Source of the DNA: a virus
DNA: 27,738 nt
Reading direction: 5' to 3' (one strand)
Virus record (IMG/VR): IMGVR_UViG_3300028925_009492
Location: 1-27,738 of that record
The notes beneath the pieces were generated by a model that was not told the origin of the DNA, searched no databases, and saw only the letters and a program-made list of their open reading frames with translations. The translations under genes were made by a program, and so were the position numbers. Below, one piece after another: positions 6,291 through 25,709 of the stretch (positions within the stretch are counted from its first letter, which is position 1; every line of letters starts with the position of its first letter).

Positions 6291-6533
6291 TTAATTATTG
6301 AAGTGGGACCATAGTTCGTCGTTAGTCAAATTAAGATGATTGGCGATCCGTAACCAAACTTCCCGTCGTCCTTGCATTATGCCTTCTATTCTAGCGTCTT
6401 CGTGAAACGTGCTCTCGTTAGCCCTACAGAACTTAGCTAAGTCGTCCAGCACTGCTTCACCATTGATACCCTTAAACGTGTGACGATACTTCTGTCCGCG
6501 CTCTTTTAAAAAGTCTTCTGCCTCAGCTGTCAT
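6291..6533 (-). CDS. Bbp19-like phage protein
   Basis: This 80-residue protein contains YRHTFKGINGEAVLDDLAKF, then a cysteine, TFHEDARIEGIMQGRREVWL and an R-I-x-x-H-L-N-L end. That is the consensus of the small Bbp19-like family found beside portal genes in podoviruses. Its molecular role is not established; it is probably involved in head morphogenesis. The ATG overlaps the portal stop (ATGA), so translation is coupled. Confidence 0.85.
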   Translation of the reverse strand: MTAEAEDFLKERGQKYRHTFKGINGEAVLDDLAKFCRANESTFHEDARIEGIMQGRREVWLRIANHLNLTNDELWSHFNN

Positions 6534-8149
6534 CCATCACCCAATTGTTTCATGATGCCCGCTGCTGCTGGCGCTGCCTCGATGGCTTGCTGTTGCTCTG
6601 AGGCTTGAGAGCGTTGCTTGCGTAGCTCATCGATCTCTTCTTGTCCACGCATCCATGATGCAGGAACAGCGTTGATCTCGGCGAGGGCGGGGTAGATGAC
6701 GTCAGTGTCGAATTGGTCGAGCACCGAGAGGTCTTGCGTTGTATTAGCGTAGGCTATCGCTGCTTCCAGTGTCCGCAACCAACCGGCAGCTTCTTCTGCA
6801 CGCTGAGAGCGTGAGAGCGGGCTGTCGTATTCGATGTCCAACTCACCACCGGCCTCGATCAGAGCGTCTGACATAGGCGGCAACATACCCTGTTGGACCA
6901 ACACGTCAAGCTCACGCTCGATCATTGGACCTAACATCTCAGACTGTTGACGTCCCATCGTGGGAGAGAGTAATGCACCCTTCTCACGCGCGCGTTCTAG
7001 CACTTCAGTCGCAGTCATTGTAGGTGTTTCTATGAGGATCTGGAACAGACTTACGAGGAACGCATCGTTGATTACGCTGCGCTCCATGTCCATCAGCTCT
7101 TGTCCAGCTGCTAGACTACCTGTGGGCAGTGCCTGTACTAGCGCACGACCTTCTGCGCTAACGCCACCGGGGTTCAACGCTCCGGGTTTCAGGCTGAAGG
7201 TGTCTAGGACACCATCGTCATGAGAAAGCAGGACAGGGTTTACGACCCGATGTCCCTGAGTGAGTAGGGTCTTCTTCTGTTCGTTCAAGACTTTGATCGC
7301 AGGTAACGCGATCATGGCAGGTGACCTGCCGTATAACTCGCCGGGGCCTGTGACGTACCGGCTAATAGGATAAGGGAAGGTGTTGAAGCCACCCTCGCTC
7401 ATGAGCTTCTTACCTTCGATCGAGACATAGTAGGACACGAAGGCTTTGCCGCGATAGTCCTTCTTTTTCTTGTCTACTTCGATGCGAGGCTTGACGCAAT
7501 GTATGATCTCGAATTTCTTGTTAGGGTGCTCTTTCAGTGCTGCTTCGACTGCGTCGGGAAGGCTTTCCCAACGACCGACATCAACGCGCTGCTGCATCTG
7601 ACGAGCCGTAAGAGAGAACTTGCGGAACGACGTATCAACAGAACCTTGGTGGCTCATGTCGAAGAAGATCTCCCGAAGATCCACCGAATTATAGCGAAGA
7701 CCACCATCGTCGTGAAAGTCAATGAACATACTCCCCGTACCAAAAGCACCAAGGCCCATATAGACTTCGTGCTGTTGGGATGCGTAGTTGGCCTTAGGCG
7801 CGTAGCGTGCCTTGAATAGGATGTTAGTTGCTTCCTCGAACCACAGCTTAGTGTCCCGGTCCTTGTTGAGGGATGAGTCAGATGCTTTGAGCCTATGCCA
7901 CTTCTGATTACGTGGCGTAAGCATGCTCTCCATCGCAGCAGCGAAGCGCTCTAGTCCGAGGGCTGCCGTCGAGTCGAACATCTTCTCTGTGCGCTTCTCG
8001 CCACGAGTGATGTCAGCAGAGTTCCGATTGAACGAGTTTGCGTAGCGGGGCAACACACGGTCAGCGATCTCTGACCAGTGTGCTTCCCAAGTACCGCGCT
8101 CGCCTTCAAGCTGGCCGAAGCGCTTGATTACATCAGCGGCTATATCCAT
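6530..8149 (-). CDS. Portal protein (head-to-tail connector)
   Basis: The protein has 539 residues, a usual length for the podovirus connector family. It starts MDIAADVIKRFGQLEGERG, then WEAHWSEIADRVLPRY, an arrangement seen in that family. MFDSTAALGLERFAAAMESM (residues about 57-76) and MYGRSPAM-like LYGRSPAMIALPAIKVLNEQ further along match the conserved core. Portals form the dodecameric ring through which DNA is packaged and released. The C-terminal Gln/Ala-rich tail is variable in the family. Three short paralogues lie upstream and the Bbp19-like gene is coupled downstream. Confidence 0.92.
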   Translation of the reverse strand: MDIAADVIKRFGQLEGERGTWEAHWSEIADRVLPRYANSFNRNSADITRGEKRTEKMFDSTAALGLERFAAAMESMLTPRNQKWHRLKASDSSLNKDRDTKLWFEEATNILFKARYAPKANYASQQHEVYMGLGAFGTGSMFIDFHDDGGLRYNSVDLREIFFDMSHQGSVDTSFRKFSLTARQMQQRVDVGRWESLPDAVEAALKEHPNKKFEIIHCVKPRIEVDKKKKDYRGKAFVSYYVSIEGKKLMSEGGFNTFPYPISRYVTGPGELYGRSPAMIALPAIKVLNEQKKTLLTQGHRVVNPVLLSHDDGVLDTFSLKPGALNPGGVSAEGRALVQALPTGSLAAGQELMDMERSVINDAFLVSLFQILIETPTMTATEVLERAREKGALLSPTMGRQQSEMLGPMIERELDVLVQQGMLPPMSDALIEAGGELDIEYDSPLSRSQRAEEAAGWLRTLEAAIAYANTTQDLSVLDQFDTDVIYPALAEINAVPASWMRGQEEIDELRKQRSQASEQQQAIEAAPAAAGIMKQLGDG

Positions 8150-8900: not shown

Positions 8901-10430
8901 TTATGAAAAAACATCGTAGTCCATATCTGTCGCAACCCTACCCCGCCGCCTTCTCATAGTCAAGTTATCTTTACGACTTACCGTCCTGCTGAACGTCGTC
9001 GCCAGCGCGTCTGCCCAATCAGGCGATGCGTAGCCCCGCTTCTTCATCTTGTCCTTAGGCTCCAGCTTGAGCTGCCCCTTGAGGCTGTACTCATACATCG
9101 GCGCACACAGGTCCTCAACCAAGTCCTTCTCGTTCGGCAGCGAGCCTGTCCCGATCCAGTCCCTCATCCGCCCCCACAGCTCCACACGGTGGTTAGCGTA
9201 CATCTCCTTGTCCTGAGCCCCGCCCCCAACCTTAACCTCTATAACCTTATACCCTGTTGCCTTCAACAGATCAGCCACACCGCCCCCAACGCCGTCACCC
9301 TCTATGAACACAGCATCAGGGTTGTAGCGATCTATTGCCCTAGCGCAGTGCTCAGCAAGCTCTACGATGGAGCACTTATCATAACCCTCAAACGCTATTG
9401 ACCTAGCATCTCTGCCCTGTCGGAAGGCCAGCACAGCCTTATCATTCCCGAACCTTGCAGGATCAACGCCCATTAGAAGAGGTGCGCCCGTGTCAGGGTG
9501 TAACTCTCTGTCCATAGCTATCTCTACGTCTCCCCTACCGATGAACTGGTAGTCGCCTTGGCGTGGGAACTGGCCGTATACCTCGACTCTAGCCTGATCG
9601 CTGTCTTCTCCATACTGCCGTATGATGTTGTTGTACAGCGTCTGGTCATTCTCCACGACTGTGCGCGCGTCAATGTTCTGACTGTTCCAAGCAGCACGGT
9701 TGCCGTGGAAGCACTCGAAGAACTCACCGCTAGGGTTACGTGGATTGCTGATGGCGATCCAGAACCTGTGCACTGTCTTGTCTGTGAAGTAGCCTTGCGT
9801 CACTGGCCATATACAAGATGCTATGCCGGATGCCTCGTCGAACAGCACAGCCATGCCGCGTTGGCTATGCACACCAGCGAATGCATCGGGGGACTCCTCG
9901 GACCACAGCCGCGCCTGTATGTACCAGTAGGCCGAGTCAAACTGCGTCGTCTTCTTGAGGCTGTCCACCAGCCAGTCAGCTGGACGCAGGGACATAGCGT
10001 TATGCTCGAACCAACGTGAGTTGATTGACATGGTTGCCCACTTGCGTATCTCAGGGAACGTGGTGGATTTGAGCTGCTGCTCGGTATTCGCGCTGACGAT
10101 GACCGTACTGGCCGGTATGGTACTGAACAGCCAGATGGCCACCCAAGCCAAGAACGCTGATTTACCTATGCCGCGCCCAGATGCGCGTGCCATCTGCATC
10201 AGCTCAGGGTCGATGTCGTTGGCGACCCTACTGCGGTTGGCAACAATATGGTCCCTTATCTCTGTAAGCGCCTGTATCTGCCATTCTCTGGGTTTATCGA
10301 AATTCTCAAGCGGGCCACCCGGTACGCCCCAAGGGAAGGCGAACATCACAAACGCCAACGGATCGTCGGCAAGCTCCAGTATCTTAAGGATAAGTTGTTG
10401 TTCTTGTGCAGCTGGTTGTACTTTCGGCAT
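8901..10430 (-). CDS. terL: Terminase large subunit
   Basis: 509 residues, the usual length for a TerL packaging motor. The ATPase domain shows Walker A GRGIGKS (about residue 84) and Walker B MAVLFDEAS (about residue 193). The C-terminal RNase H-like nuclease shows GVDPARFGNDKAV (first Asp), FIEGDGVGGGVADLL and SPDWADALA. All motif positions look intact, so packaging activity is expected. It uses the portal as docking site and the small subunit for DNA recognition. The ribosome binding site before the ATG is weak (A/T-rich with GAAAG). A 139-bp G/C-rich gap separates it from the gene upstream. Confidence 0.95.
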   Translation of the reverse strand: MPKVQPAAQEQQLILKILELADDPLAFVMFAFPWGVPGGPLENFDKPREWQIQALTEIRDHIVANRSRVANDIDPELMQMARASGRGIGKSAFLAWVAIWLFSTIPASTVIVSANTEQQLKSTTFPEIRKWATMSINSRWFEHNAMSLRPADWLVDSLKKTTQFDSAYWYIQARLWSEESPDAFAGVHSQRGMAVLFDEASGIASCIWPVTQGYFTDKTVHRFWIAISNPRNPSGEFFECFHGNRAAWNSQNIDARTVVENDQTLYNNIIRQYGEDSDQARVEVYGQFPRQGDYQFIGRGDVEIAMDRELHPDTGAPLLMGVDPARFGNDKAVLAFRQGRDARSIAFEGYDKCSIVELAEHCARAIDRYNPDAVFIEGDGVGGGVADLLKATGYKVIEVKVGGGAQDKEMYANHRVELWGRMRDWIGTGSLPNEKDLVEDLCAPMYEYSLKGQLKLEPKDKMKKRGYASPDWADALATTFSRTVSRKDNLTMRRRRGRVATDMDYDVFS

Positions 10431-10569
10431 AAAAAACTTTCAAAAAATATTTAAATAAACTGTCCGGGTCAGGTCCATATCCCATGCGCCAGCCTCAGGC
10501 CTCGGGGTACCCCCGTGCCACCCCCCCGGTCTAGGCTAAGTCATTGAAACCTAACACCCTTCCAGCTTT
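10431..10569. other. Intergenic region between small-terminase candidate and terL, with palindrome
   Basis: There is no gene here. It holds a 10-bp palindrome GGGGTACCCC (10504-10513), G/C-rich tracts on each side, one copy of the TAAGTCATTGA motif (10537-10547) and, touching it, CCTAACACCCT (10550-10560). Just outside the terminase pair, this is a plausible packaging or regulatory site; nothing proves it. Confidence 0.5.
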
Positions 10570-10950
10570 TCAGCCCAATACCTCAAATCCATCATCATCA
10601 TCAGGTTCAAGCGTTTCAGGTGTTAGGGTGTCTGGCTCAGCTACGTGTTCGATGATAGGTCCAAGCGTCTCAGGTGTTAGGGTGTTAGTGGTGATGTCCT
10701 TCAGCCTGTTGCTTGCTTGCTCTAGTGCCAAGCCAAGGTCGACCACATTCACGTTAGCTGTCACGTCGATCGCCGATGGCATTACCTTCGCAACTAGCTG
10801 GATAAAGAGTGGTAGGGTTTTAGGGTCGTCAGCGAGAGACGCGAGCCACCTGCCTCCACCTTTGTGCCTAAATGCCCACTCAACCTCCTCGCGAATAGAC
10901 TTCATATCCTTGCGGTGTTTGAGTGGTGGCGGTGCGCCTCTTCGTGCCAT
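10570..10950 (-). CDS. Terminase small subunit candidate
   Basis: A 126-residue protein beginning with a basic MARRGAPPPLKHRKD segment, then helical REEVEWAFRHKGGGRWLAS and FIQLVAKVMPSAIDV, and ending in an acidic tail. The tail contains a duplicated TLTPETL-(G/E)-P element, encoded by copies of a sequence containing GGTGTTAGGG, and a run of Asp. It is the first gene of the late operon and lies directly upstream of terL, the standard place for the DNA-recognition subunit. The family is not recognised from motif alone, so the role rests on position. Confidence 0.6.
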   Translation of the reverse strand: MARRGAPPPLKHRKDMKSIREEVEWAFRHKGGGRWLASLADDPKTLPLFIQLVAKVMPSAIDVTANVNVVDLGLALEQASNRLKDITTNTLTPETLGPIIEHVAEPDTLTPETLEPDDDDGFEVLG

Positions 10951-11182: not shown

Positions 11183-11347
11183 TTTCCGCCATTGTGCTCA
11201 CTGAGTGGCTTAAAACCGCGATCAATAAAGTGTGTAAGTCATTGATATCCCTGCACAAAATAGGCGTTTTACAACTTCCCAAGAGACTGAATGTGCCCCA
11301 AATCCAGCGTTTCAGCACACCGACATCGGCAGTTTTCCGCCATTGTG
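11183..11347 (+). repeat. Direct repeat pair TTTCCGCCATTGTG
   Basis: The 14-bp sequence occurs at 11183-11196 and 11334-11347, 151 bp apart, both in the same orientation inside the divergent control region. Placed upstream of the candidate early promoter, the pair could be a regulator binding site that loops DNA. The exact match is directly seen; the role is inferred. Confidence 0.6.
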
Positions 11348-14963: not shown

Positions 14964-15353
14964 ATGATTGGACTAGAGATAAGTGACTTTGATAAGATAC
15001 CGCTTTTTCACTTTGTGGACGTCGCTCGCGAGATAGGGTTGGCGGCAAGTTACGACGATCGAGACGCTGATGAGGGTATCATGGACGTAGCCGTAGAGAA
15101 CTGGGTTACATTAGATGATACGATGACCTCGTTCCGCGTGTTCAAGCTGGGTCAGAAATGGGAACGGGGTGCAGAACAACGCTGGATTTTCCAATTGTAC
15201 ATTGCGGACGCCGAGGGTGATAACCTCACCGATCGCGGTTGCGTTTGGGGAAGCAGTAACATGGAAGGGTTGACCCTAGCTGTTCAGGAAGTGGACAACA
15301 GGTTTACCGGAATGACATACACATTAGAGGAAGCAGTAAATGCGAGAGTTTAG
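14964..15353 (+). CDS. Early protein of unknown function
   Basis: 129 residues, acidic, with MIGLEISDFDKIPLFHFVDV at the start and a Trp-containing centre (QRWIFQLYIAD). GGAG lies 7 nt before the ATG. Its last 14 nt overlap the HTH gene that follows. No motif identified. Confidence 0.7.
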   Translation: MIGLEISDFDKIPLFHFVDVAREIGLAASYDDRDADEGIMDVAVENWVTLDDTMTSFRVFKLGQKWERGAEQRWIFQLYIADAEGDNLTDRGCVWGSSNMEGLTLAVQEVDNRFTGMTYTLEEAVNARV

Positions 15354-15579
15354 AAAAAGACATAAATTAACACAAAAAAAGTTGGCGCGGTTGCTTCATA
15401 TGAGCGAAATTGGTGTTCGCGTCTCTGAAAAAAGAGGCACAATTCCAAAACCGATGAGACTTTTGTTAGTCGTGCTGACACCGACGCTGGATAAACTAGG
15501 GTTCGAAAAGACCAAAAATCTGCTCGATAGCGCAATAATAGAACAAAAAAGCTCTGTAACCCGCAGAAAACTGCGGTGA
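15340..15579 (+). CDS. Small Xre/Cro-like helix-turn-helix DNA-binding protein
   Basis: 79 residues. REFRKRHKLTQKKLARLLHM (residues 2-21) followed by SEIGVRVSEKRG gives the HTH_3 pattern: Q12 starts helix 2, with the recognition helix in the second segment. The basic C-terminus extends it. It is the last gene before a repeat-rich non-coding region, so it may bind the repeats there or act as an early repressor. The TGA stop lies inside the first TGAGGGA repeat. Confidence is good for HTH, low for target. Confidence 0.8.
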   Translation: MREFRKRHKLTQKKLARLLHMSEIGVRVSEKRGTIPKPMRLLLVVLTPTLDKLGFEKTKNLLDSAIIEQKSSVTRRKLR

Positions 15580-15624
15580 GGGACAGAAAAAGGGTATCCC
15601 TCAGAGATTTCCTCTGTAACCCGC
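15552..15624 (+). repeat. Direct repeat CTCTGTAACCCGC (60-bp period)
   Basis: The 13-mer is at 15552-15564 and 15612-15624, exactly 60 bp apart. The first copy lies in the end of the HTH gene and is part of a CCGCAG-AAAA-CTGCGG hairpin (15561-15576). Confidence 0.7.
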
Positions 15625-15900
15625 TGTTTTCCTCGATTGTCCAGCTGAGGGACTGAGGGACGGCTCTATATCTTTTCCCTGAGATTACATATGTATAAAT
15701 AGCTGTACTACTCCATAGAAACCCTTATATTGTCACTCACGCACTCAGAGACGAAATACGGCGGAAATACAGGCGGTACAGAAGGACAAAATCGGTAGCT
15801 TTGAGGGACTGAGGGAAATTCACTTTTTACCCAACGATTTCAATGACTTATTTTGGGTGTTTTTGGACGATTGCACTCAGCTAATGATTTCAATGACTTA
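15577..15900 (+). repeat. Iteron-like cluster in 390-bp non-coding region; candidate replication origin
   Basis: No gene is seen between 15580 and 15970. TGAGGGA occurs at 15577, 15646, 15654, 15802 and 15810, with one inverted copy (TCCCTCA, 15597-15603). GATTTCAATGACTTA occurs at 15836-15850 and 15886-15900, exactly 50 bp apart. The segment about 15660-15740 is AT-rich. Repeats, an AT-rich stretch and location between an HTH gene and the replication genes fit an origin, but also a multi-site operator. No DnaA box was identified. Confidence 0.6.
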
Positions 15901-15970
15901 AAGAAAATGGATTTGTCAACCCCTAATTTACTAATTCGGGTAATTCTGCTCGATAAAACCGGAGAAAAAC

Positions 15971-16054
15971 ATGGACGAAGAATGTACGTGCAAATGCAAC
16001 GCAGAAGAATGCGAATGTGAAGAGTGCAGCTGCGAGAAATGCGGCTGTAAATAA
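15971..16054 (+). CDS. Metallothionein-like Cys-rich microprotein (27 residues)
   Basis: The ATG at 15971 follows GGAGAAAAAC, a good ribosome binding site. Nine of 27 residues are Cys, at positions 5, 7, 9, 14, 16, 19, 21, 24 and 26. The pattern is C-x-C-x-C-x4-C-x-C-x2-C-x-C-x2-C-x-C, spaced by Glu, Lys and Ser with no aromatics or aliphatics except one Ala. This is the composition and spacing of metallothioneins, which chelate Zn, Cd or Cu in thiolate clusters. It lies alone between the repeat region and a palindrome-flanked promoter. It is shorter than usual bacterial members, so it may bind only two to four ions. The coding call rests on the ribosome binding site and the Cys pattern. Confidence 0.72.
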   Translation: MDEECTCKCNAEECECEECSCEKCGCK

Positions 16055-16055
16055 A

Positions 16056-16114
16056 CCTAACACCCTAATAGCCCAACACCGTACAAGCGTATAATCGTAC
16101 AGATCGGTGTTGGG
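16056..16114 (+). promoter_or_regulatory. Operator-like palindrome around a -10 box
   Basis: CCCAACACCG (16072-16081) and CGGTGTTGGG (16105-16114) are perfect 10-bp inverted arms around a consensus TATAAT (16090-16095). A related CCTAACACC lies at 16056-16064, 16 bp before the first arm. There is no good -35, which fits an activator- or repressor-controlled promoter for the genes from 16133 on. The same half-site sequence recurs elsewhere in the window. The site could also form an RNA hairpin with a 23-nt loop, but there is no U-run, so it is not a terminator. Confidence 0.6.
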
Positions 16115-16132
16115 TGTACTTTGGAGAGTAAA

Positions 16133-16354
16133 ATGGATCGTAACTATTTATCATACGGCTCTGACCGTATCGACGACGCAGACTTACTTAAAATAGAGGC
16201 AGACTTAGACGACATGACGGCAATATGCCAAGAGCTGCAATTCTTGCGGCACAGTGACGATGAGTTACGCGAAGAGCTCGACGCGCTGCATAAAGAGGTG
16301 CAGCTCTTGTTTGATAGTTTGGAGGGAACGCTGTCGTTCAAGTTAGATGGCTGA
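16133..16354 (+). CDS. Acidic coiled-coil protein of unknown function
   Basis: 73 residues from ATG 16133 with GGAG 6 nt upstream. A TTG 12 nt upstream overlaps the ribosome binding site and is rejected. It is rich in Asp, Glu and Leu with heptad-like spacing over residues 17-65, so one or two long helices are likely. It is the first gene behind the palindromic promoter and overlaps the DUF3310 gene by 8 nt. Confidence 0.7.
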   Translation: MDRNYLSYGSDRIDDADLLKIEADLDDMTAICQELQFLRHSDDELREELDALHKEVQLLFDSLEGTLSFKLDG

Positions 16355-16691
16355 GTGCGAGTATTGCCATGGGAACCATTACTATCGGTTCCGTGACGAG
16401 ACGGTCCCTTGTGGCTACTGCGCGGGTAGTAGTACCTTCTCAGGTCAATACGACGACGGCTACAGTCCCGACGACGACGGCTACAGTCCCGACGACGACG
16501 TCAACCACCCTGAGCACTATAACTTGGGACAGGAGCCGTTCCCGTTCATTGAGAGCTGGGGCATGTCGTTTGCTGAGGGCTGCGTCATTAAGTACGTGGT
16601 GCGTCACAAGCATAAGGGCGGGCTAAAGGACCTAAAGAAGGCAGCGTGGTACTTGAACAAGCTGATTGAGAGCTATGATGACGAGACGTGA
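16347..16691 (+). CDS. DUF3310 protein with N-terminal zinc ribbon
   Basis: 114 residues. Residues 1-25 hold two CxxC pairs (C4, C7 and C22, C25), a zinc-ribbon pattern. Residues 38-51 are a duplicated GYSPDDD encoded by a 21-bp tandem repeat. From residue 52, VNHPEHYN, then FIESWGMSFAEGCVIKYVVR and LKDLKKAAWYLNKLIES match DUF3310, a common phage early family with no proven activity (it has been called nucleotide-kinase-like). The zinc ribbon joined by a repeat linker is the odd part. Confidence 0.85.
   Translation: MAECEYCHGNHYYRFRDETVPCGYCAGSSTFSGQYDDGYSPDDDGYSPDDDVNHPEHYNLGQEPFPFIESWGMSFAEGCVIKYVVRHKHKGGLKDLKKAAWYLNKLIESYDDET
16452..16499 (+). repeat. 21-bp tandem repeat in the DUF3310 gene
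   Basis: Two full copies (16452-16472 and 16473-16493) plus six matching bases. It encodes the acidic (GYSPDDD)2 linker. Such in-frame repeats can change copy number by slippage without breaking the frame. Confidence 0.85.
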
Positions 16692-16875: not shown

Positions 16876-17018
16876 TGGAGCTGTTGATCATAGGCGCGGG
16901 GGCGGTAGCAGCCTTCCTCGTGTATGAAGCAAATAGAGAAAGGAAACGCTATGAGCTGCAAAGAATGCGACGACAAAGGTTACGTAATGGACGAAGTAAC
17001 AACCGGCGGGACCGCTGA
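16872..17018 (+). CDS. Single-helix membrane protein with basic tail, overlapping the next gene
   Basis: ATG 16872 overlaps the previous TGA. The 48-residue frame begins MMELLIIGAGAVAAFLVYEA (one membrane helix), then has an Arg-rich tail (about 13 Arg in 28 residues). It overlaps the zinc-ribbon gene by 68 bp in another frame; that overlap encodes much of the Arg-rich tail. It may be real because of coupling and the clean helix, or the tail could be a by-product of the other frame. Confidence 0.5.
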   Translation: MMELLIIGAGAVAAFLVYEANRERKRYELQRMRRQRLRNGRSNNRRDR

Positions 17019-17121
17019 CGGGAGCCCGTGGCAGTCATACCGATCAAGGCGCGTGCCTTGTGAGGTGTGCGCTGAGTTCCAGTTCCACGACCCGGACGGT
17101 CTGAGTAAGTGGGTCCCATGA
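16951..17121 (+). CDS. Small zinc-ribbon protein (DnaJ-like CxxC pairs)
   Basis: 56 residues from ATG 16951 (AAGGAA upstream). MSCKECDDKGYV carries the first CxxC with a following Gly, and RRVPCEVCAEF carries the second. The pattern CxxC-x-x-x-G resembles DnaJ zinc-finger repeats. It is probably a small metal-stabilised nucleic-acid or protein binder. Its stop overlaps the next start (ATGA at 17118). Confidence 0.7.
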   Translation: MSCKECDDKGYVMDEVTTGGTADGSPWQSYRSRRVPCEVCAEFQFHDPDGLSKWVP

Positions 17122-17243
17122 AAAAGTCGAATATAATTGAAATAAAAATATTCTTAGCTGCTGGTGTACCTCAAACAGTGCTGGCAGAACTATTTAACAC
17201 CAGCAAAACAGCTATCAATAGAATAGCAGTAAGGATGAAATGA
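17118..17243 (+). CDS. 41-residue stand-alone helix-turn-helix protein
   Basis: IKIFLAAGVPQTVLAELFNT followed by SKTAINRIAVRMK gives a resolvase/Hin-type HTH (A-G-V-x-x-x-x-L-A-x-x-F-x-x-S-x-x-x-I-x-x-I) with nothing else. It is coupled by ATGA at both ends, directly upstream of the primase-helicase gene. A lone HTH of this size may be a DNA-site recognition subunit for the next protein or a small regulator. Both are inference. Confidence 0.62.
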   Translation: MKKSNIIEIKIFLAAGVPQTVLAELFNTSKTAINRIAVRMK

Positions 17244-19411
17244 TCGACCATACAGAGTTCCTATCGACATTGTTTCCAACCCTAACACCCTCAGAGCATG
17301 TCAGCGTCACCGAGATACCCAAAGGGGGTTTCATAACGGACGCGCTGGCTACGGGTAAGGATTTCTCATCTTGGGACCCTGAAACCCCAAGAGCCATGTA
17401 CTTCTGCGTGTCGACGACGAACGGTAAGAGCCGGACCCGTGACAATCTGGTACGGTCTCACGTCCTGATGTTGGACGACATAGGCGACAAGACAGCAGAG
17501 CCGGGGGTAGAGCCGACTTATAAGCTCGAGACGTCCCCCGGCTCTTTCCACTGGGGCTACAACCTAGTTCCTACAGCTGACGTCACAAGGTTCGAGGCGT
17601 TGGTGGAGATAATCACGAAGGACTTAGGCTTCGGGGACAAGGGTGCCGGCGGTTCGTACCGTCTCGCACGTTTGCCGGGAAGCACCAACGTCAAGGATGG
17701 CAAGAACAACTTCAAATCAGTCATAACAGACTGGCACCCTGACAGGGTGTGGGAGTTGGACGAGTTAGCCTCTGAGTTTGGCGTGGACCTGAATAACGTC
17801 AAGACGAAACGCAAGCCAGTGTCTCGCGTAGAGACTAAGGACAACATCGACCCCTTGCTCGACTGGCTGAGCGCAGACAATCGCGTCATCTCAGACGGCG
17901 GTGAGTGGGTTGAGGTGGCGTGCCCTTGGGCATCGACGCACACTGACGGCAGTACGGCAGCAGGGTATAGCCCGCTAGGCCGAGGTGCCGAGGGTAACGT
18001 CGACAGCCGGGGGTTCAATTGCTTCCATGAGCACTGTAAGACGAAGAACATAGGCGATTACATCACTTGGGCCAAAAGTGTGGGCGGTCCTGACGTGACG
18101 GGCTACGATCCACTGCCATGGTTGCAGGAACGCTACGCATATCTTGGGATGGACGAGAAAGTGGTTGACTTACACCAGCGTAAACTCGGTGGAAGCGATT
18201 GGTTGTGGGATTTGAGGGCTTGGGGGCGGCGTCATCCCGGATATATAGAGAAAATCCGGGTTGCGGACGCCTTTGTGGCCTCTCATGACACAAAACACGC
18301 CGATTTCATGTCATATGTGCCCGTGAAACGTGAAGAAGACACAGGAATGGTGAAAGTATACAGTCAAACGGCAGTAAATGTGTACGTCCCGCCAAATTGG
18401 GACGAAATCGACGACCTTCCTGAGGTTTTCATCGAACATATGGAATACCTGATACCTGACACCCTAGAACGCGAGCTCTTTGTAGATTGGTTGGCTTATA
18501 AATTCCAAAATCCTGACCGGCGGTCGTATGCCATGCTAATGGTGGCCGATCGGGCGTTTGGTATAGGCCGATCGTGGATTAAAACGATGTTAGCTGCTAC
18601 GTTACAGTCGTCAGTCAACACAGCGACCTTAGGACAGCTAATCGGGCGTGGTACGTCCGCTGAGCAGTCCTATAATGACTGGCAATCCAGAACGCAGTTC
18701 ATTTGCATAGAGGAAGCAAGGGAAAGTACCGACAAAGACGTGTTCTACCAAGCATATGAGACGTTCAAGACTAACGTCGACCCTGCTGTGGGCGTTGGAA
18801 TACGTATTAACCCGAAATATGGCAAAACTAGGACCGAGAATATCTACTATAACGCCCTGATTTTCTCAAATCATAAGGACGCCATAGCAATACCGGCAAA
18901 TGATCGTAGAATATGCGTAATTAAGAACCCTACGACCATGGAGAGCTCGAGCTACTACGAAAGATTGGCTCGATCGATCACGTCCGGCGAGCCCCAACGC
19001 ATCTACTGGTATTTAATGCGCCGGGATGTGTCGGGTTTCGACAATATCATTCCCCCGATGACACCGGGTAAGCAAGACATGATATCCGCTAACGTCATGC
19101 CATCCGATGAAATCTGGAGTTTGATCGAAAATCAGCTGCCTGATCTGGTAACTAAGATCACCCTACAGGACGCCGTGGTGAGTGGTGCCGCCCAATTACG
19201 CATGGACGGCATAGCAAACAAGCCTCGGGCTGTGGCGGCTGCTCTATGGGCCGATATACCCCCATTGAGGGACGAGAAGAACGGCGCTCGATACCGTGTC
19301 GGGCCATCTAACTCGCAAGCTGAGCTTAAGGCGGTGAGAAACGTCGAAGAGTGGACGAAAAAGGACGACGAGAGAAGTAGAGAAGTAATGGTTGTGGGCA
19401 TGTCCCGTTAG
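17240..19411 (+). CDS. Primase-helicase fusion (AEP-like primase plus DUF5906-type helicase)
   Basis: 723 residues. N-terminal AEP-like part: LMLDDIGDK (DD at 79-80), SPGSFHWGYNL (99-109; active-site His) and GGSYRLARLPGSTN (137-150) fit archaeo-eukaryotic primase motifs. A zinc-binding insert follows (C228, C261, H263, C266). The C-terminal third is a superfamily 3-type helicase: a P-loop-like AFGIGRSW at 439-446 with Arg444 where Lys is usual, acidic FICIEEA (487-493), and FSNHKDAI...RR (542-557) as sensor/Arg-finger region. It would make primers and unwind the fork. The K-to-R change may reduce or alter ATPase activity; similar degenerate loops occur in phage relatives. Confidence 0.82.
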   Translation: MIDHTEFLSTLFPTLTPSEHVSVTEIPKGGFITDALATGKDFSSWDPETPRAMYFCVSTTNGKSRTRDNLVRSHVLMLDDIGDKTAEPGVEPTYKLETSPGSFHWGYNLVPTADVTRFEALVEIITKDLGFGDKGAGGSYRLARLPGSTNVKDGKNNFKSVITDWHPDRVWELDELASEFGVDLNNVKTKRKPVSRVETKDNIDPLLDWLSADNRVISDGGEWVEVACPWASTHTDGSTAAGYSPLGRGAEGNVDSRGFNCFHEHCKTKNIGDYITWAKSVGGPDVTGYDPLPWLQERYAYLGMDEKVVDLHQRKLGGSDWLWDLRAWGRRHPGYIEKIRVADAFVASHDTKHADFMSYVPVKREEDTGMVKVYSQTAVNVYVPPNWDEIDDLPEVFIEHMEYLIPDTLERELFVDWLAYKFQNPDRRSYAMLMVADRAFGIGRSWIKTMLAATLQSSVNTATLGQLIGRGTSAEQSYNDWQSRTQFICIEEARESTDKDVFYQAYETFKTNVDPAVGVGIRINPKYGKTRTENIYYNALIFSNHKDAIAIPANDRRICVIKNPTTMESSSYYERLARSITSGEPQRIYWYLMRRDVSGFDNIIPPMTPGKQDMISANVMPSDEIWSLIENQLPDLVTKITLQDAVVSGAAQLRMDGIANKPRAVAAALWADIPPLRDEKNGARYRVGPSNSQAELKAVRNVEEWTKKDDERSREVMVVGMSR

Positions 19412-25420: not shown

Positions 25421-25446
25421 GGCGCTACGGGCCTGTTTTTTTTTTT
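25420..25446 (+). terminator. Terminator of the early/replication operon
   Basis: AGGC (25420-25423) and GCCT (25431-25434) form a short stem, followed by G and eleven T. It lies between the convergent HNH and Nfu genes; the T-run ends on the Nfu stop codon. The stem is short, so efficiency may be modest. Confidence 0.65.
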
Positions 25447-25709
25447 CAGTAATAAGGGTTAACTACTTCCCCGTCCTCATGTGATACACTTTCAACATCA
25501 TCTGGCAGGTATTCTTTAAGAGTTTGTTCTACCCCTAGTTTAAGAGTGAATGAACTGGCAGCACAACCTGCACATGATCCTGTTAATTTAACATGGACAT
25601 TCTTTTTTTCTTCATCGTAGGATAATAATTGTATGAGTCCACCATGTTGAGCTATGGTAGGAGAAATTACATCAGCTAAGATGTCTTCTATTTTAGCAAA
25701 TGTTGTCAT
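25446..25709 (-). CDS. NifU/Nfu-type Fe-S cluster scaffold protein
   Basis: 87 residues. The whole protein is a NifU C-terminal domain: ISPTIAQHGGLIQLLSYDEE, then VHVKLTGSCAGCAASSFTLK (CxxC at C46 and C49) and LGVEQTLKEYLPDDVESV. Known Nfu proteins bind a [4Fe-4S] cluster between two CxxC motifs in a dimer and deliver it to target enzymes. The usual D-G-G is H-G-G here. The gene is coupled to the lysozyme by ATGA, and is the last gene of the leftward late operon. It is visibly more AT-rich (about 37% G+C in a 120-bp sample) than most of the window, suggesting recent transfer. It may supply clusters to phage or host Fe-S enzymes. Confidence 0.88.
   Translation of the reverse strand: MTTFAKIEDILADVISPTIAQHGGLIQLLSYDEEKKNVHVKLTGSCAGCAASSFTLKLGVEQTLKEYLPDDVESVSHEDGEVVNPYY

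Follow-up and report, generated by a model that had tools for sequence, protein, structure and literature searches.

The SmtA type of bacterial metallothionein carries His ligands and a zinc-finger-like fold, the copper thioneins of fungi are rich in Ser and Gly, and the beta domain of the mammalian protein has CxC and CxxC motifs. The bacterial proteins SmtA, BmtA and PsdMT as well as MymT sequester metal through Cys-rich sequences (PMC7387436), and the established fungal copper thioneins, such as the metallothioneins of Neurospora crassa and Agaricus bisporus, have 26 amino acids and 7 Cys (PMC4755600). The classical metallothionein clusters M3(SCys)9 and M4(SCys)11 contain nine and 11 Cys, and Cu6(SCys)9 is the form proposed for copper (PMC2364930). 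In the open-access full-text literature, outside which most subscription papers lie, we found no report of phage-encoded metallothioneins. Here, we describe a Cys-rich microgene in an IMG/VR virus record that is linear and 27,738 bases long, analyzed at its full length and called the window below.

A Cysteine-Rich Microgene Far beyond Chance

Direct translation of positions 15971..16054 on the + strand gives a microgene of 27 codons, a putative mini-metallothionein, with the product MDEECTCKCNAEECECEECSCEKCGCK and a ribosome-binding site GGAG (15961..15964, +) that can be read directly 6 nt 5' of the ATG. The nine Cys make up 33% of the residues and are spaced C-x-C-x-C-x4-C-x-C-x2-C-x-C-x2-C-x-C (1-1-4-1-2-1-2-1). 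The peptide contains no His, no aromatic residue and no hydrophobic core; the non-Cys residues are acidic, small or Lys and, with 9 D/E vs. 3 K, make it strongly acidic. Metallothioneins are recognized by their composition (small, very Cys-rich, CxC/CxxC, few or no aromatics), and at 27 amino acids and 9 Cys, MDEECTCKCNAEECECEECSCEKCGCK has that composition.

The ORF is far beyond chance. The whole window was shuffled 300 times with its dinucleotide composition preserved. ORFs of 15 to 60 codons in which Cys made up at least 30% of the residues and numbered six or more arose 0.01 times per shuffled window, the real window having 1; ORFs with 9 Cys, or with an ATG and a 4-base Shine–Dalgarno (SD) sequence, appeared in 0/300 shuffles. 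The translation, the GGAG and the shuffles together confirm the initial annotation in its description of a 27-codon, 9-Cys ORF with C-x-C and C-x2-C spacing and a good ribosome-binding site. The codon usage is mixed for both Cys (TGT 3, TGC 6) and Glu (GAA 6, GAG 2), and the microgene is thus not a DNA microsatellite or simple repeat. No long ORF was found on the opposite strand at 15971–16054.

Setting within a Tailed Phage Genome

The gene content of the window, with a terminase (8901–10430, −; a sub-cutoff Pfam match with hundreds of relatives in viral contigs), a head–tail adaptor/portal (6530–8149, −; phrog_332, 2e-146), a RepB-primase/DUF5906 protein (17240–19411), DUF2800, DNA polymerase A (polA) and an SNF2-type helicase, identifies the source as a tailed phage. 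The best relatives of the portal in named records are from one uncultivated Caudoviricetes record (57%), Stenotrophomonas phages (42%) and pelagiphages (~35%).

The microgene is the first ORF past a noncoding region of ~390 bp, which itself comes after a gene for a small helix–turn–helix (HTH) protein (15340..15579, +; Cro-like by inspection, with a weak PHROG match of unknown function). The intergenic leader (15580..15960, +) is a probable control region and contains the direct repeats TGAGGGACTGAGGGA and AAYGATTTCAATGACTTA, each present twice; no sigma-70 promoter consensus was found on the + strand of the leader region and no Rfam families or tRNAs were found. The microgene is probably expressed early, given that no other gene separates it from this HTH/repeat control region and that the replication genes come later. 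A perfect 10-bp inverted repeat follows the microgene (16072..16114, +) and folds into 11 pairs at −23.9 kcal/mol (z −3.7), without a U-tract; it is a candidate operator, processing site or attenuator-like hairpin.

Two further motifs recur in the window. Four copies of GATTTCAATGACTTA with at most one mismatch lie at 15836–15850 (+), 15886–15900 (+), 10537–10551 (−) and 11235–11249 (−), every one of them upstream of genes on its own strand, when ~0.6 matches would be expected even at three mismatches, and the motif is a candidate phage-specific promoter or operator. The motif CTAACACCCTA occurs seven times at up to one mismatch vs. 0.33 expected (e.g., at 16057–16067, 10678–10688, 10551–10561 and 17282–17292), with part of the copies being intergenic and part within genes.

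The next gene 3' of the microgene (16133..16354, +) has its own ribosome-binding site GGAGAG (16123–16128) and no assigned function. It is followed by a DUF3310 protein (16347..16691, +) with an N-terminal CxxC...CxxC and a 65-aa protein (16924..17121, +) with the same arrangement, both possible zinc sites. Farther away, a NifU-domain (Nfu-like) protein (25446–25709, −; Pfam E 4.6e-21) adjoins a gene that is lysozyme-like by inspection. The initial annotation spoke of many CxxC proteins encoded nearby: the two downstream products, with two CxxC pairs each, and the NifU-domain protein bear this out in kind, but their number is modest. No metal-responsive regulator or transporter was recognized in the window.

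Search for Relatives of the Microgene

We found no homologue with the exact 1-1-4-1-2-1-2-1 spacing in IMG/VR, the three matches of the exact-spacing search being spurious. A pattern defined by the Cys spacing only retrieved, among the matches listed, low-complexity Cys runs and not comparable microgenes; for this reason, an E/K-anchored pattern was taken instead. The MDEECTCKCNAEECECEECSCEKCGCK peptide had no match in Pfam-A, NCBIfam or PHROGs even at E ≤ 10, HMMER filters being weak on 27 amino acids, and none in the PDB. A tblastn search of MDEECTCKCNAEECECEECSCEKCGCK and sister peptides against phage isolates returned nothing and is uninformative, as the search probably masks peptides of this kind as low-complexity sequence; the neighbor genes of two sister peptides were likewise without a match in phage isolates.

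Relatives of the phage were sought via the primase (4 loci), the terminase (80 loci kept), polA and a concatenate of the early region (no confirmed locus), and no homologue of the microgene was found among them. The contigs with the most similar terminases (up to 81%) either lack the microgene or do not extend to its region. One of them (L249) retains a homologue of the HTH gene adjoining a terminase 81% identical to that of the window, and its contig stops about where the microgene would be. Among 48 relative records, most of them fragments, there was no SD-preceded CxCxxCxC ORF, with 7 pattern matches vs. 11 for the reversed control. A search for MDEECTCKCNAEECECEECSCEKCGCK itself in six relative phage records found none; it had no positive control of its own, though it recovers the copy in the window. 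The check for Cys positions conserved in homologous phages, proposed in the initial annotation, thus gave no same-spacing homologue, the relatives either being without the microgene or not reaching it. Given this and the absence from the terminase relatives searched, the microgene looks, by sequence comparison, like accessory cargo: either the cargo is recent, or too few relatives have been sampled.

Phage CxC Micropeptides and an 11-Cys Family

A scan across IMG/VR with the pattern C-x-C-[EK]-x-C-x-C-[EK]-x-C-x-C found this core in at least 120 stretches. An SD of at least four bases preceded 42 of the 57 distinct short ATG ORFs among the matches listed, compared with ~11% for random ATGs from those contigs; for ORFs with several in-frame ATGs, the one with the best SD was used, a slight bias toward the ORFs. 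Several micropeptide genes, among the examples listed, lie 0 to 25 nt from genes for a tail spike or fiber (L139, L228, L215), a terminase (L183) or a head-closure protein (L161), and in another (L155), the terminase is two genes upstream. This tight packing against virion genes indicates that many of the micropeptides are genuine phage genes; others sit on short contigs whose viral status is presumed. In one group of six distinct related sequences, the non-Cys codons differ by 41 synonymous vs. 24 nonsynonymous changes and the Cys codons vary between TGT and TGC only, a ratio as for a selected protein, although part of this signal is imposed by the pattern used for the search. No model in Pfam, NCBIfam or PHROGs credibly covers any tested member. 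A class of such genes exists in phages and bacteria. Its phage members, such as MIEYKCENCDCENCDCENCNCENCDCK (L230) and MTNECDCENCECENCDCK (L198), share with MDEECTCKCNAEECECEECSCEKCGCK the CxC-[EK]-x-CxC-[EK]-x-CxC core, a length below 60 amino acids and, in most cases, an ATG with an SD, but they lack its CxCxC start, and many of them belong to late structural operons, whereas the MDEECTCKCNAEECECEECSCEKCGCK gene is near a control region and replication genes.

When MDEECTCKCNAEECECEECSCEKCGCK was aligned to all collected peptides, the top matches were three 11-Cys peptides (L147, L378, L359) with the spacing 1-1-2-4-2-1-2-1-2-1. A search for this exact spacing in IMG/VR found 12 viral contigs, several longer than 80 kb and one of 459 kb, and the peptides are clearly readable in most of them. 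Of 199 Flavobacteriaceae genomes, 35 matched a 7-Cys version of the pattern, with TGT repeats or chance accounting for a few of the matches; the reversed 7-Cys control matched only genomes bearing TGT repeats. The Flavobacteriaceae peptides, e.g., MKTDKNCTCTCENCKNGQCQNCTCESCSCSGCNC, form a single family of 30 to 35 amino acids and 11 Cys with small variations in spacing, found in ~30 of the 199 genomes (loci L462–L470, L472, L473 and L476–L478; also L349, L359, L378 and L453). No Pfam or NCBIfam model matched the Cys-rich part of the tested 11-Cys members and, judging from its sequences, the Flavobacteriaceae family is probably an unannotated cellular metallothionein.

The 11-Cys micropeptides of Flavobacteriaceae and large phages (L359, L378, L457, L459, L147; 30 to 40 amino acids) resemble MDEECTCKCNAEECECEECSCEKCGCK in the CxCxC start, the C-terminal CxC-x2-CxC-x2-CxC and the Glu and Lys between the Cys. 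Their alignment with MDEECTCKCNAEECECEECSCEKCGCK has a gap in the middle: the window's peptide lies outside the family spacing C-x-C-x-C-x2-C-x3-5-C-x2-C-x-C-x2-C-x-C-x2-C-x-C, agreeing at the ends and having a shorter middle, without an internal C-containing segment (minus two Cys), and it is more acidic. The family profile scores MDEECTCKCNAEECECEECSCEKCGCK at 10.6 bits, a score reached by 1 of 2,000 shuffles. Since short Cys-rich peptides align easily, homology is only suggested; the architecture appears to be common to both, with descent not provable at such length.

Other Cys-rich proteins appeared in these searches. GrpE-like proteins (by inspection) from Clostridia, Bacillales and Tenericutes MAGs (L337, L358, L377, L401, L451) have long CxCExC Cys-rich N-terminal tails, and similar tails are found at the C terminus of ferredoxin-like proteins (L357, L409). 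Three viral-contig proteins (L151, L172, L200) combine a membrane anchor with CSNAACPCEDCTCKDCKCG, followed in L151 and L172 by a domain that by inspection is thioredoxin-like (CKQC). Conserved Bacteroidota peptides of 30 to 37 amino acids (L384, L352, L399, L402, L437, L444, L448) have an end similar to CGNPNCTCENCTCENCTCG; that of L384 had no match in Pfam or NCBIfam.

Alternative Readings of the Microgene

The short ORF is rich in one amino acid and ends 79 nt upstream of the following start codon, with a stable hairpin downstream (−23.9 kcal/mol, z −3.7) and last codons that can also pair. It could therefore be a leader peptide whose nine Cys codons sense charged tRNA-Cys, the hairpin at 16072–16114 coupling ribosome pausing to control of the operon. 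We consider this unlikely. Amino-acid attenuators combine consecutive regulatory codons with hairpins that compete and a terminator bearing a U-tract. The locus does have a hairpin, but this lacks a U-tract, the next ribosome-binding site (16123–16128) is not sequestered, and the Cys codons are not in runs but dispersed in C-x-C and C-x2-C spacing as for metal binding. The similar micropeptides of other phages, moreover, lie inside operons, 0 to 20 nt from their neighbors. The repeated adjacency of those micropeptides to virion genes and the richness of phage early regions in small host-takeover proteins would fit a structured Zn- (or Fe-S-) dependent micro-adaptor that binds a specific host or phage protein, for instance to inhibit it or to assist virion assembly, with no role in metal management. 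MDEECTCKCNAEECECEECSCEKCGCK, however, has no hydrophobic or aromatic residues for a binding surface or core, and the residues between the Cys vary freely while the Cys are kept, which is typical of metal-cluster peptides; such an adaptor, too, has a small chance of being the right answer.

Two other readings seem very improbable. That the ORF is an untranslated product of chance would agree with its lack of conservation in any relative found and its position beside a noncoding control region, but such an ORF with an SD was seen in 0/300 shuffles and its architecture is that of SD-enriched genes elsewhere. A thiol/redox buffer or a store of cysteine or sulfur, in which metal binding is incidental, could be reconciled with 33% Cys and the NifU-domain scaffold gene in the same genome (25446–25709); it would have no need for the recurrent CxC/CxxC spacing, and we hold it to be the faintest of the candidates.

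A Putative Metal-Thiolate Peptide

We regard it as fairly probable that the microgene is a translated phage metallothionein-like gene whose product is a Zn(II)/Cu(I)-thiolate peptide serving as a metal buffer in infection. The initial label of a metallothionein-like microgene is the best reading and is supported in part, by the beyond-chance ORF, the phage contig and the SD-preceded CxC/CxxC micropeptides of many phage contigs; it is weakened by the lack of a same-spacing homologue, by the absence from the 48 relative records (mostly fragments), by the strong acidity of the peptide and by the failure to recognize a metal-responsive regulator or transporter in the window. We infer that MDEECTCKCNAEECECEECSCEKCGCK is translated, that this happens early and that it binds metal at the stoichiometry given below; as to which metal is bound and what the phage gains, we can offer a guess. 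With no His, aromatic residue or hydrophobic core, the peptide plausibly folds only around metal. Unfolded in the metal-free state, it would wrap a single metal-thiolate cluster via its nine Cys; the simplest forms would be Zn3(SCys)9 and, for Cu(I), a cluster with about six metal ions. During infection, such a peptide would serve as a dissolved buffer or a transient carrier for Zn(II)/Cu(I): it could hold metal freed by the breakdown of host proteins and hand it to new phage Cys4 proteins, e.g., the CxxC proteins encoded just downstream; alternatively, its benefit may be to blunt metal or oxidant stress. Zinc or copper buffering, virion protection and metal delivery, as suggested initially, are putative roles, and buffering and transfer of Zn/Cu during infection would be the most economical function.

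A broader proposal, to which we give slightly less than an even chance, is that phages commonly carry mini-metallothioneins of a 9-Cys (M3S9-type) and an 11-Cys kind (M4S11-type, shared with Flavobacteriaceae), forming an unannotated accessory class that manages zinc or copper and of which the window contains a small one. Should the peptides bind metal, phages would have a metal-handling strategy that escapes gene callers because of gene size and profile libraries because of low complexity, and the 9- and 11-Cys types would be minimal models of the M3S9 and M4S11 clusters. The peptides are short enough for synthesis, which makes the claim cheap to test.

Comparison with Known Metallothioneins

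The bacterial SmtA/BmtA/PsdMT and MymT proteins are about twice as long as MDEECTCKCNAEECECEECSCEKCGCK, which has no match to the known prokaryotic metallothionein profiles (SmtA/BmtA type, Pfam and NCBIfam). The beta domain of mammalian metallothionein, M3(SCys)9, has nine Cys as does MDEECTCKCNAEECECEECSCEKCGCK (PMC2364930), but it is one of two domains, its sequence is unrelated and the mammalian protein is Lys-rich, whereas MDEECTCKCNAEECECEECSCEKCGCK is very acidic. In size and CxC motifs, MDEECTCKCNAEECECEECSCEKCGCK resembles the fungal copper thioneins (PMC4755600), although their spacing, X2-CXC-X5-CXC-X3-CXC-X2-C-X3 with 7 Cys, is different and no relationship is implied. Given that a 26-residue thionein with 7 Cys is established in fungi, small size is no objection to MDEECTCKCNAEECECEECSCEKCGCK being a metallothionein.
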